Shown here: piece after piece, positions 20,251 through 25,003 of the stretch
How the letters are laid out: every line of letters starts with the position of its first letter
Position numbering within the stretch: the stretch's first letter is position 1
Origin: an uncultured Lachnospiraceae bacterium
Lineage (GTDB): Bacteria; Bacillota; Clostridia; Lachnospirales; Lachnospiraceae
DNA length: 64,000 bases
Assembly: GCA_947626395.1 (NCBI GenBank)
Contig: CANQRU010000008.1
Span: 24,296 to 88,295, forward strand
Direction: 5' to 3'
Notes under the pieces: model-generated
The model's database searches: none
What the model was told of the DNA's origin: nothing
What the model saw: only the letters and a program-made list of their open reading frames with translations
Made by a program: the position numbers and the translations under genes

Positions 20251-21606
20251 TTATTTATTTTCCAGCACCGCCAGAATATCCGGGAACGCCTGCAGGCTGC
20301 GCTCCAGGATGCCGTTCATGCAGGCGATGGCGATGCCGTAGTTGACGATGGGGACGCCGGACTGGACGGCGCGGCTGATACGGTGCTTCATTTCCTTTTC
20401 GTTCAGCATGCAGCCGCCGCAGTGGATCACCAGTGTGTAGGCGGACAGATCCTCCGGAAATTCGGTGCCGGAAGTAAAGGTATAGACCGGTTTTGCGCCG
20501 CTGTACGCCTCGATCCAGTGGGGCAGCTTGACGGTTCCGATGTCATTGCACTGGCGGTGGTGGGTGCAGCCCTCGCTGATCAGGACTTTGTCGCCGTCCT
20601 TTAAGCGGGCCAGCTGGGCGGCGCCTTCGACCAGCCGCGGCAAGCTGCCCTTGTAGCGGGCGAACAGGATGGAAAATGAGGTGAGCAGCACGTCGCCGGG
20701 CGTGGCCGCGGCCACTTTCCTGAATGCCTGGGAGTCGGTGACGACCAGCCTCGGCTTTCGGGATAGGTCCGCCAGCGTCTGCTTCAGTTCTTCGGGCTGG
20801 CAGGTGATGAACGTGCAGTGGATATCCAGGATTTCCCGCATGGTCTGCTGCTGAGGCAGGATCAGGCGGCCCTTGGGCGCGGCTTCGTCCACCGGAACCA
20901 CCAGGACGACGATGTCACCGGGGGCCAGAAGATCCGCCAGGATCGACTTGTCTTTCGCGGCGGCCGGCGCGAAGGCGCCGATCTTTTCTTTCAGTTCATG
21001 AATGCCCTCGCGGGTGGCGGCGCTGACGAAGAGTTCGTTGTCTTTGAGCTGCGCCGGGTTATGCTCCGGATGCGTATCTGTATTTTTATGCGGGTATAGC
21101 GCCGGAGTTTCGCTGTTCGTATTTCCAGGCGAACATGGCGCCAGAGATTCACCGTTCGTATTTCCATGTGAGCATGGCGCTGGCGACACATTGCCTGCAG
21201 TTCTGTCTCCCAGCAGATCCGCCTTATTGTAAGCAACCAGATACGGCAGTTTCTTTTCCTCGAATAACGAGATCAGTTCTTCATCTGCTTCCGTTCGGCC
21301 CCGCGTGGAATCGACCACCAGCACGGCGATGTCCGTCTGGGCCAGAATCTGCCGGGCTTTCTTAACCCGCTGCGCGCCCAGTTCCCCTTCGTCGTCCAGC
21401 CCGGGCGTGTCGATGATCACGACCGGGCCCAGCGGAAGCAGTTCCATGGCTTTCTTCACCGGATCGGTGGTAGTGCCCTTTATATCAGAAACGACGGCCA
21501 GATCCTGGCCGGTGACCGCGTTGACCAGGCTTGATTTGCCGGCGTTGCGGACGCCGAAGAAGCCGATGTGCAGGCGTTCGGCGGATACGGTTTCGTTAAG
21601 TCCCAT
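20251..21606 (-). CDS. hydF: [FeFe]-hydrogenase maturation GTPase HydF
   Basis: HIGFFGVRNAGKSSLVNAVTGQ P-loop, DTPGLDD, YNKADLL; C-terminal CTHHRQCNDIG and HCGGCMLN cluster ligands. Confidence 0.97.
   Translation of the reverse strand: MGLNETVSAERLHIGFFGVRNAGKSSLVNAVTGQDLAVVSDIKGTTTDPVKKAMELLPLGPVVIIDTPGLDDEGELGAQRVKKARQILAQTDIAVLVVDSTRGRTEADEELISLFEEKKLPYLVAYNKADLLGDRTAGNVSPAPCSHGNTNGESLAPCSPGNTNSETPALYPHKNTDTHPEHNPAQLKDNELFVSAATREGIHELKEKIGAFAPAAAKDKSILADLLAPGDIVVLVVPVDEAAPKGRLILPQQQTMREILDIHCTFITCQPEELKQTLADLSRKPRLVVTDSQAFRKVAAATPGDVLLTSFSILFARYKGSLPRLVEGAAQLARLKDGDKVLISEGCTHHRQCNDIGTVKLPHWIEAYSGAKPVYTFTSGTEFPEDLSAYTLVIHCGGCMLNEKEMKHRISRAVQSGVPIVNYGIAIACMNGILERSLQAFPDILAVLENK
21081..21197. 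repeat. 3 x 39-bp tandem copies of the dispersed repeat, in frame inside hydF
   Basis: Units 21081-21119, 21120-21158, 21159-21197; encode the APCS(H/P)GNTN(G/S)E-type 13-aa repeat. Confidence 0.9.
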
Positions 21607-21621
21607 AGATAATTTCCCCCC

Positions 21622-21879
21622 TCAGTCGTCGTCCTTTATTTCAGAAAATGCGGTCTTTACGCTGACGCCGTCCAGATTGCCGATCTTGCCTGCCAGCGCG
21701 GAGATCGTGTCCTGGGGCGCGTCGATGGCGATGCTGATGATATTGATGTTCCGCTGCCGGTAAGGAATGCCCATACGGCCGATGATGTACCCGCCGTAAT
21801 CGTGCAGGATGTGGTTCAGCTTCTCCACGGTGTCGCCGCTTTTGACGATGATGCTCATGACTGCGACTCGTGTTTTCAT
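21622..21879 (-). CDS. TM1266-family iron-only hydrogenase system putative regulator
   Basis: MKTRVAVMSIIVKSGDTVEKLNHILHDYGGYIIGRMGIPYRQRNINIISIAIDAP, adjacent to hydF. Confidence 0.9.
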   Translation of the reverse strand: MKTRVAVMSIIVKSGDTVEKLNHILHDYGGYIIGRMGIPYRQRNINIISIAIDAPQDTISALAGKIGNLDGVSVKTAFSEIKDDD

Positions 21880-22008
21880 AACAGGTTCCTCCTTATATTG
21901 TGATCGGTTGCCGTTTTCGGGCGGAAGACGGGGAAACGACCCGCCTTGCGGCTGTTTTCGCTCACGGCGTTGTCTGCCGCAGGCGCATTTTTATGGGCCG
22001 TTATGAGT

Positions 22009-22150
22009 CAAAAAAGCCGCACCCGAACCGGTACGGCTGAAAAGACGGAATAACATGAACAGAAAAATGCAGGGCAGAACCCTCGCAGCTTTCGCTTCAT
22101 GAATGATGCCGTACCTTTCACGCAGACGCAGCGTCTTTGTGTCAGGCAAC
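22009..22150 (-). ncRNA. Candidate structured leader RNA / attenuator upstream of TM1266-hydF
   Basis: Promoter, terminator AGCCGTACC..GGTGCGGCTTTTTT and 8-nt perfect antiterminator partner GGTACGGC upstream. Confidence 0.6.
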
Positions 22151-22156
22151 ATGGTT

Positions 22157-22185
22157 ATTATACATCGTTTTATCGGTAAACGCAA
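22157..22185 (-). promoter_or_regulatory. Promoter for leader RNA (TTGCGT-17-TATAAT on minus strand)
   Basis: Minus strand: TTGCGT, 17 nt, TATAAT. Confidence 0.7.
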
Positions 22186-22405
22186 CTCTTCTTTGAATGG
22201 AGAAACTGCCCGAAAAAGGCAATAATATTTGACAAGTGTTCAAAAGATTTGTATAGTACTTTTATGGAGACCAGTCTGGAACAGGAATGTTAATACATGT
22301 AAGAAAGAACGCTTATTTGGGGAAGCAGCCGAAAGGCCGGGCCGGCCGGCCGCTTCTCAAAACATATGCTGTACATGGGAGACTATCGGAAGGAGAACGG
22401 ATCGC

Positions 22406-25003
22406 ATGGGCAATGATTTAACACAGGATAATTATGCGAAAAAGGATCGGAGCCTGACGGCCACGGGAATCGTGATCGTCGTTATCGCTGTATTGCTGGT
22501 TTCCGCGTTCCTCAGTATTAACTCGGTACTCCGTCAGCGGTCCTTAAGCCGCGTGGAGGAAGGCGCCGATACGGTGATCGAGGAAGTCACGTCCAAGCTG
22601 GCGCGGGACAGCCGGATCTTAAACGCCGCTGCCGATATCATTTCCCAGGCGGATAATTTTGATCCGGAAGCGACGAAGGACGTTATGATGACGATCTCTC
22701 CGCTTCTCGAGACGATGCAGGTGCGCGTTCTCATGCCGGACGACACGATCCTGACGCTGGGCGAGTCGGTCGTCAACAAAACCGACGGCACCGGGATTTC
22801 CTTCGCGGAGGAAGCGCCGCTGGGGGAGCATGTGTCAAACCGTCAGACGAGTCTCACGACCGGGAAACCGGTTCTGCGTCACTATGTGCCGATCGTCCAG
22901 AACGGGCAGACCGCGGCGCTGCTTTATGGTCTTACGGAGCTTTCGACGCTGGAGGACAGTCTGAATATTGATAATATTTACAACGCGAGCGCCAGCGTTT
23001 ACATCATCGACACGCGTACCGGAGATTTCATCCTGGATACCTGGCATGATGAGTTAGGCAATATCGCCGACTACGGCGCATCGGACCGCGAGACGAAAGG
23101 AGACACGACCTGGGATGAATACACAGATGATCTGCTTAAGCTGAAATCTGGCTATGTCGTCTTTCGGACGCCTCAGATGGACGATTGGGAATATATGTAT
23201 TACGCGCCGGCCGGCATCAACGAGTGGTCCATCGCCGTATCCGTGCCGGAGAAGGAGGCGTTTGCCAGCGTGTACGCGGTTCAGCGGGTCTGCCTGATCC
23301 TGGGCGTCCTGATGGCGGTCACGATCATTCTGTACTATCTGTGGGTCCGGCATAACGCGATGCAGATCATGAACCGGGCCGTGGAACAGGCGGTGCTGGC
23401 GGAGAAGCTGCAGAAGGCGGAAGCGGCCGACCGGGCCAAGAGCGTATTTCTTTCGAATATGTCCCATGACATCCGCACGCCGATGAACGCGATCATCGGG
23501 TTCACGACGCTGGCGGAGACGAATATTGACAATAAAGAACGGACCCAGGAGTACTTAAAGAAGATTCTCTCCTCCAGCAATCATCTTCTGAGCCTGATCA
23601 ACGATATTCTGGATATGAGCCGGATCGAGAGCGGGAAGCTGAACATCGAGGAGAAGGAATGCAGCATTTCCGACATTTTCAAGGACATGCGCAATATCAT
23701 CCAGCCGCAGATGCAGTCCAAGCAGCTGAATTTCTTCATGGACACGGTGGATGTGGTGGACGAGGATATCTGCTGCGACAAGCTGCATGTGAATCAGGTG
23801 CTTTTAAACCTTCTCTCCAACGCGATCAAGTTCACTCCGGCCGGCGGAACCATCGCCCTGACGATTAAGCAGAAGCCGCGCGCGCCCAAGGGCTACGGCT
23901 CCTACGAGATCCGGGTCAAGGACACCGGCATCGGCATGAGCGATGAGTTTATCCGCCATATCTTTGAGCCCTTTGAGCGGGAGCGTAATACCACGGTCAG
24001 CGGAATTCAGGGCACCGGCCTGGGCATGGCCATCACGAAGAATATCGTAGACACCATGGGCGGCACCATCGAGGTGCAGTCCGAGCAGGGCAAGGGAACC
24101 GAATTCATTATCAATATTGATTTCCGGCTTCAGACAGAGCCGCAGAAGATCGAGATCGTTGAGGAACTTAAGGGCATGCGGGCCCTGGTCGTGGACGACA
24201 GCTTCGATACCTGCGACAGCGTGACGAAGATGCTGACCCAGATTGGCATGCGGTCCGAGTGGGCCATGCACGGCAAGGAGGCGGTACTCCGCGCCAGGCA
24301 GGCCTATGAAATGGGCGACGAATACCATGCCTATATCATCGACTGGTTCCTGCCGGATCTGGGCGGGCTGGAAGTGGTGCGGCAGATCCGTTCCATCGTG
24401 GGCGACAGCGCGCCGATCATCATCGTCACGGCTTATGATTGGACCGCCATCGAGGACGAGGCGCGGGCTGCAGGCGTGACAGCGTTCTGCAACAAGCCGA
24501 TCTTCTTGTCGGAGCTGAGGGAAATCCTGCTTTCCGCCACCTGCAGTTCAGTTTCGATGCAGCAGGAGAAGGAGAGCCTGATCCCGGATCTGTCGGAGCA
24601 GCTGAAGGGTACGCGCCTGCTGCTGGCGGAGGACAATGAACTGAACCGGGAGATCGCCGTGGAACTTCTGTCGGACAGCGGCTTTGTGGTGGATACGGCG
24701 GAAGACGGCACGGTGGCCGTGGAGAAGGTGAAGAATTCCGAGCCGGGGTATTACGGCCTGATCCTGATGGATATCCAGATGCCGAAGATGAACGGCTACG
24801 AGGCCACGAAGGCGATCCGGGCGCTGAACAGCCCGGTTCTGGCCAATATTCCGATCGTCGCCATGACGGCGAACGCGTTCGACGAGGACCGGAAGCAGGC
24901 GCTCGACAGCGGCATGAACGCGCATATCGCCAAGCCGATCGATGTGGAGAAGCTTCTGGAGGTCATTACGAATATTCTGAACCAGAATAAAATTTCGGGT
25001 TGA
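22406..25003 (+). CDS. Hybrid sensor histidine kinase with two receiver domains
   Basis: MSHDIRTPMNAIIGF H-box; GTGLGMAITKNIV; two REC domains ending in ...IIDWFLPDLGG and LILMDIQMPKMNGYEAT. Confidence 0.93.
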   Translation: MGNDLTQDNYAKKDRSLTATGIVIVVIAVLLVSAFLSINSVLRQRSLSRVEEGADTVIEEVTSKLARDSRILNAAADIISQADNFDPEATKDVMMTISPLLETMQVRVLMPDDTILTLGESVVNKTDGTGISFAEEAPLGEHVSNRQTSLTTGKPVLRHYVPIVQNGQTAALLYGLTELSTLEDSLNIDNIYNASASVYIIDTRTGDFILDTWHDELGNIADYGASDRETKGDTTWDEYTDDLLKLKSGYVVFRTPQMDDWEYMYYAPAGINEWSIAVSVPEKEAFASVYAVQRVCLILGVLMAVTIILYYLWVRHNAMQIMNRAVEQAVLAEKLQKAEAADRAKSVFLSNMSHDIRTPMNAIIGFTTLAETNIDNKERTQEYLKKILSSSNHLLSLINDILDMSRIESGKLNIEEKECSISDIFKDMRNIIQPQMQSKQLNFFMDTVDVVDEDICCDKLHVNQVLLNLLSNAIKFTPAGGTIALTIKQKPRAPKGYGSYEIRVKDTGIGMSDEFIRHIFEPFERERNTTVSGIQGTGLGMAITKNIVDTMGGTIEVQSEQGKGTEFIINIDFRLQTEPQKIEIVEELKGMRALVVDDSFDTCDSVTKMLTQIGMRSEWAMHGKEAVLRARQAYEMGDEYHAYIIDWFLPDLGGLEVVRQIRSIVGDSAPIIIVTAYDWTAIEDEARAAGVTAFCNKPIFLSELREILLSATCSSVSMQQEKESLIPDLSEQLKGTRLLLAEDNELNREIAVELLSDSGFVVDTAEDGTVAVEKVKNSEPGYYGLILMDIQMPKMNGYEATKAIRALNSPVLANIPIVAMTANAFDEDRKQALDSGMNAHIAKPIDVEKLLEVITNILNQNKISG

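Follow-up and report, generated by a model that had tools for sequence, protein, structure and literature searches.

The analysed stretch of DNA, called the window throughout, comprises 64,000 nt from an uncultured Lachnospiraceae bacterium and carries on its minus strand an operon that begins with genes for a TM1266 family protein and the H-cluster maturation GTPase HydF. The features of this operon and of its leader, in the direction of transcription and with the evidence for each, are as follows.

22157..22185, minus strand: promoter TTGCGT-17-TATAAT (sequence; same-genus leaders L002, L004, L007 and L009, and G002)
22114..22146, minus strand: 5′ hairpin of 33 nt, putative sensor or anti-antiterminator (match to covariance model R1, covariation, matches in held-out genomes)
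22108..22115, minus strand: antiterminator 5′ strand GGTACGGC (sequence, complementarity in 59 leaders, alternative folds)
22052..22100, minus strand: long spacer hairpin CAUGAA...UUCAUG, containing GCGAAAGC (fold; outer stem common to near relatives only)
22030..22037, minus strand: antiterminator 3′ strand GCCGTACC, identical to the terminator 5′ arm (sequence, complementarity, folds)
22010..22038, minus strand: intrinsic terminator, stem-loop 22038–22015 plus U-tract 22014–22010 (sequence; kept in homologous leaders)
21622..21879, minus strand: TM1266 family protein, 85 aa, operon gene 1, putative regulator (TIGR03959, 116.7 bits; PF21699; weak NikR_C; relative of PDB 2NZC)
20251..21606, minus strand: HydF, operon gene 2 (TIGR03918, 554.6 bits)

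The leader spans ~270 nt from promoter to TM1266. Its promoter, which a first-pass annotation of the same DNA had proposed, lies where it was described: TTGCGT at 22185–22180 is followed by a 17-nt spacer and TATAAT at 22162–22157, and transcription is expected to start near 22150. A consensus promoter scanner passed over it, as the −35 box agrees with the consensus at only three of six bases; comparison of leaders showed that it is kept in sister species. Across homologous leaders, the commonest placement of a −10-like box is with its end 10–12 nt 5′ of the hairpin (31 of 59). Divergent from the leader lies a hybrid histidine kinase gene (22349–25003, plus strand) with promoter-like TTGACA-17-TATAGT at 22229–22257; a relative of this kinase is found at the equivalent position in G012, G021 and G002. 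Within HydF, residues ~140–190 form a repetitive low-complexity insertion of APCSxGNTNxE repeats after the GTPase domain, apparently missing in G021.

Between promoter and gene lies an intrinsic terminator, AGCCGTACC-GGTTCG-GGTGCGGCT followed by TTTTT (22038–22010), as the first-pass annotation had claimed. Upstream of it, the 8-mer GGTACGGC (22115–22108) is perfectly complementary to GCCGTACC (22037–22030) in the terminator 5′ arm, and its first two bases are the 3′ end of the outermost helix (P1) of the 5′ hairpin, so that one AGG strand is common to hairpin and antiterminator. The resulting antiterminator excludes the terminator and shares bases with both sensor and terminator. Over 145 nt, the leader is more stable than dinucleotide shuffles by 3.9 standard deviations (z = −3.9). 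When the transcript was folded up to the terminator 5′ arm, the minimum free energy (MFE) structure was the antiterminator, at −40.6 kcal/mol compared with −39.9 kcal/mol with the 5′ hairpin closed, and the two folds thus remain balanced within 0.7 kcal/mol until the terminator 3′ arm is transcribed. Once that arm was added, the MFE structure flipped to 5′ hairpin plus terminator (−56.0 kcal/mol), in agreement with the mutually exclusive folds proposed earlier.

The same architecture recurs in homologous leaders. Each of the 59 leaders has a terminator-like hairpin downstream of the 5′ hairpin and ahead of the gene, although the automatic search probably took the wrong hairpin in a few of them. 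In most, the 3′ strand of the 5′ hairpin, from 2 nt up to GUGAAAGG, together with the bases that follow it, pairs with the terminator 5′ arm, for example over 12 bp in L049 and 13 bp in L058. This complementarity is specific to each leader: over the 59 leaders it scored 1034, compared with 915 ± 25 when leaders were permuted, and none of 5,000 permutations did as well. The MFE structure of the full leader lacked a closed P1 in 20 of the 59.

The element recognised as conserved in these leaders is the 5′-terminal hairpin, CCUGAC...GUGAAAGG, which the first-pass annotation had missed while describing the attenuator pairing correctly. It consists of P1 (CCU/AGG), an internal loop (GA/AA), 3 bp (CAC/GUG), a second internal loop (AA/GC), P2 (AGACG/CGUCU) and a CUG hairpin loop. 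Upstream regions of TM1266 in other Clostridia share the 5′ element CCUGACAnnAAG-loop-CUGMGUGAAAGG, whose copy in the window lies at 22146–22114. Covariance model R1 matched TM1266 leaders of many gut Clostridia; for the window leader it gave 52.9 bits at 22108–22149, a score obtained with the window sequence itself in the training set. In an alignment of 35 sequences (A1; P1 CCU/AGG, loop GA/AA, 3 bp, loop NA/GM, P2), 90.1% of cells were paired, with 41 double changes compared with 18.3 in shuffles, and the paired fraction fell to 26–44% in slid controls. As the pattern used to choose these sequences fixed P1, covariation was recounted on 58 covariance-model matches (A2), of which 89.4% of cells were paired, with 63 double changes compared with 26 in shuffles. 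In L045, the first P1 pair is replaced by U-A. The middle 3-bp helix is mismatched in some leaders, and the internal-loop bases GA/AA and G[C/A] are near-invariant across orders. The outcome that the first-pass annotation had named as a refutation, orthologous leaders devoid of conserved structure, did not occur. The leader holds a structured, covarying putative sensor of the kind found in riboswitches.

The intervening GCGAAAGC hairpin, which the first-pass annotation had counted as part of the switch, did not share this conservation. It is not kept even within the genus, and the outer stem of the spacer hairpin that contains it is visible in L002 and missing from distant leaders; we rejected it as a functional part and regard it as incidental.

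Two alternative readings fare poorly. Chance complementarity with no regulatory element can point to the finding that promoter-like matches in the region are no commoner than in shuffles, but conservation, covariation, the permutation test and genome-wide context contradict it, and we give it almost no credence. A leader-peptide attenuator, in which a stalled ribosome would pick the fold, is scarcely more credible: a reading frame running through the window leader begins at an ATG close to the expected start, but no ribosome-binding site was seen in front of it, and the hairpin loop varies in length by steps other than multiples of three, with its flanking bases, rather than codons, conserved.

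We scanned genomes at five taxonomic levels with R1: 392 from the class, 150 from the family, 26 from the genus, 51 from the order and 399 from the phylum (partly overlapping sets; ~1,000 genomes in total). The large scans scored only the top candidates of each genome and may therefore have overlooked some weak copies. Most loci were collected via TM1266, which biases their gene context; the genome-wide scans alone are unbiased in this respect. All R1 matches above 31 bits preceded either TM1266 with hydE, hydG or hydF next in line or, in G366 and G646, a hydE-hydG pair lacking TM1266. A 30.0-bit match in G354, with a terminator present, precedes aspA-hydF; AspA is already known to accompany hyd operons (PMC11736057). 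Matches in held-out genomes, outside the training set, likewise lay upstream of TM1266-hydE/hydG, hydE-hydG or aspA-hydF. The motif is single-copy in each of 36 motif-bearing genomes, which had been found via TM1266. Weak covariance-model matches (L130, L131, L132, L152, G619:C36 and L189, the last of 30.2 bits and inside an ORF), most of them within ORFs, were treated as noise.

Elsewhere, the operons behind the element are TM1266-hydE-hydG-hydF, hydE-hydG, aspA-hydF, TM1266-ECF S-component and TM1266-FecCD. TM1266 is followed by the S-component of an ECF transporter in L048, L057, L059, L064, L069, L088, L100 and L107 (identified by a significant match to Pfam PF12822 in L057 and L088 and by sequence similarity in the rest). 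A non-hyd operon under the element (L101:2875-5841) encodes TM1266, a FecCD permease, an ABC ATPase and a NifH-like ATPase. In L048, the element stands directly downstream of an ORF that, judged from its sequence, resembles the large subunit of [FeFe]-hydrogenase.

A further reading is that the leader has no dedicated effector. Read-through might instead be fixed by folding kinetics, temperature or transcription rate, or the terminated leader might be an sRNA acting elsewhere; the balance of the two window folds and a ~140-nt terminated product with its own promoter speak in favour of this reading. However, internal-loop bases that hardly vary across orders imply specific recognition, and the constant position of the hairpin in cis to TM1266 or hyd genes makes a purely trans-acting RNA unlikely. 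We consider attenuation without a dedicated effector improbable.

The element has also been lost or altered in some relatives. In G002, hydF has the same promoter region and a shortened leader without the terminator, with no TM1266 in front (L037, G002:C268). In G013, G018 and G017 the element is gone and TM1266 (83–91% identical) lies directly behind another gene; in G013 and G018, a relative of the histidine kinase closely precedes TM1266 in the same orientation. In L042, upstream of 3001, the 3′ half of the hairpin and the terminator are intact, but the 5′ half of that hairpin seems to have been moved or inverted; a chimeric assembly may be the cause. A divergent version with shorter P1 conservation occurs in L108, L125 and L190, where the antiterminator is UGAAAG against the terminator loop; TM1266 of L125 and L190 has I-G at positions 8–9 instead of M-S.

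Taken together, we propose with a probability of about 80% that the leader is a transcription attenuator, an OFF switch for the H-cluster maturation genes and TM1266. Comparison among leaders establishes the conserved hairpin, the terminator, the competing pairing and the link to these genes; the binding of an effector to the hairpin, and the OFF state as its consequence, are inferred. The 20 leaders in which P1 is not closed and the mismatches in the middle helix of some leaders count against the proposal. RNA polymerase would first produce the small 5′ hairpin with its two 2×2 internal loops. Were this hairpin not stabilised, its AGG strand and the following bases would pair with the terminator 5′ arm, forming the antiterminator and allowing the operon to be read. 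An effector that stabilised the hairpin would lock the AGG strand, so that the terminator would form and transcription would stop before TM1266. The fold preferences before and after synthesis of the terminator 3′ arm suggest, from structure, that stabilising the hairpin should cause termination.

Several known systems resemble this scheme. In pyr attenuators, the gene for the regulator PyrR also leads its operon. In the PyrR-dependent attenuators of Bacillus, a protein-stabilised hairpin acts as an anti-antiterminator and causes termination (PMC4347634). The hairpin of the TM1266 leader is likewise a predicted anti-antiterminator, as the 3′ strand of P1 overlaps the antiterminator. Its sequence is different and it serves another pathway, and in the family searches run TM1266 did not come out as a homologue of PyrR; binding of a protein to the hairpin is a prediction. 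Like the TM1266-leader element, the RAT of LicT/BglG is a small hairpin that has two internal loops and overlaps an alternative terminator pairing. However, the RAT has a different sequence and, when bound, is itself the antiterminator and switches expression ON; the TM1266-leader hairpin excludes the antiterminator and would switch expression OFF, placing it outside the RAT type. Riboswitches of the transcription-terminating OFF type also have a sensor helix strand in common with the antiterminator, so that a ligand would give termination, but the sensor here is a single short hairpin that matches no Rfam family.

The first-pass annotation had been unable to match the leader to T-box, THF, SAM, purine, c-di-GMP or ykkC classes by eye, which database scans bore out. 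With Rfam 15 at the gathering threshold, a tRNA was the sole match in the window, and permissive scans of the window leader and 10 motif-bearing homologous loci gave no relevant match. Openly accessible journal papers, searched for hydF or hydG riboswitches, TM1266 and candidate structured RNAs, gave no description of the leader element or of any RNA regulation of H-cluster maturation genes. The mechanism is of a known type; the RNA family, as far as could be tested, appears to be new.

Two candidates for the effector stand close together. TM1266 was previously called a putative hydrogenase regulator with no known target, and openly accessible literature yielded no RNA leader or RNA-binding activity for TM1266, TIGR03959 or PF21699. 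Nearly all loci have it as the first gene after the element, no matter which genes follow (hyd, ECF S-component or FecCD), though G366, G354 and G646 do not, and all motif genomes checked encode it, two of them at an unlinked site. With 2NZC as a solved relative and a sub-threshold match to the NikR C-domain, TM1266 may serve as a ligand sensor that lacks a DNA-binding domain. The hairpin also has a pseudo-twofold symmetry, both strands reading CUGM-NNN-NAAG and agreeing at 6.7 of 8 outer positions (a post hoc test gives P(≥6) ~0.02 as the random expectation); this is suggestive of a possible site for a homo-oligomer. First-gene position, universal presence, possible ligand-sensor fold and pseudo-symmetry together favour a PyrR-like autoregulator, and our tentative first choice is that TM1266 acts on its own leader, probably when carrying a small ligand.

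Co-occurrence itself was rejected as proof of this role. In class genomes, TM1266 was found in 61% and the motif in ~2%; TM1266 does not need the RNA element, and its presence in all motif genomes is weak evidence. Residue differences between the TM1266 proteins of motif and non-motif loci (S9, for instance, occurs in 81% versus 21%) are confounded by ancestry.

A true riboswitch, with the 5′ hairpin itself as the receptor for a small molecule or metal ion that would turn the maturation genes off, is a serious though somewhat weaker possibility. Where operons are split, the hairpin stays with the maturases rather than TM1266 (G366, G646 and G354), and the TM1266 genes of G366 and G354 have no copy of their own; with the 61% and ~2% base rates, this makes a direct riboswitch nearly as likely as TM1266. 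The transporters among the cargo and the almost invariant internal-loop bases also favour it. However, a small lone hairpin that is pseudo-symmetric and has few conserved unpaired bases looks more like a protein site, no Rfam riboswitch matched, and no TM1266-free motif genome was found among those checked. Candidate ligands from H-cluster assembly are SAM or its by-products, tyrosine, cysteine, Fe2+ and ammonium or aspartate, or alternatively the solute of the ECF or FecCD transporters in some operons; the Fe–S-related signal suggested in the first-pass annotation is unsupported. We lean slightly towards the TM1266 protein, with the direct riboswitch close behind. The earlier proposal of a riboswitch or attenuator controlling the TM1266-hydF operon thus holds for a conserved attenuator-type switch; its narrower reading as specifically a metabolite riboswitch is unsupported, a TM1266 protein effector being at least as likely.

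The element is probably a new class of regulatory RNA devoted to the maturation of [FeFe]-hydrogenase: it would either act as a riboswitch, with a ligand tied to H-cluster assembly, or be the RNA that TM1266 binds. If TM1266 does bind RNA, it would represent a new family of sensor proteins that bind RNA and have a NikR-C-like fold. The losses in G002, G013, G018 and G017 provide natural comparisons for expression. An RNA of ~40 nt with a defined readout would make both the signal that stops hydrogenase cofactor synthesis in hydrogen-producing gut bacteria and the role of TM1266 testable in vitro.
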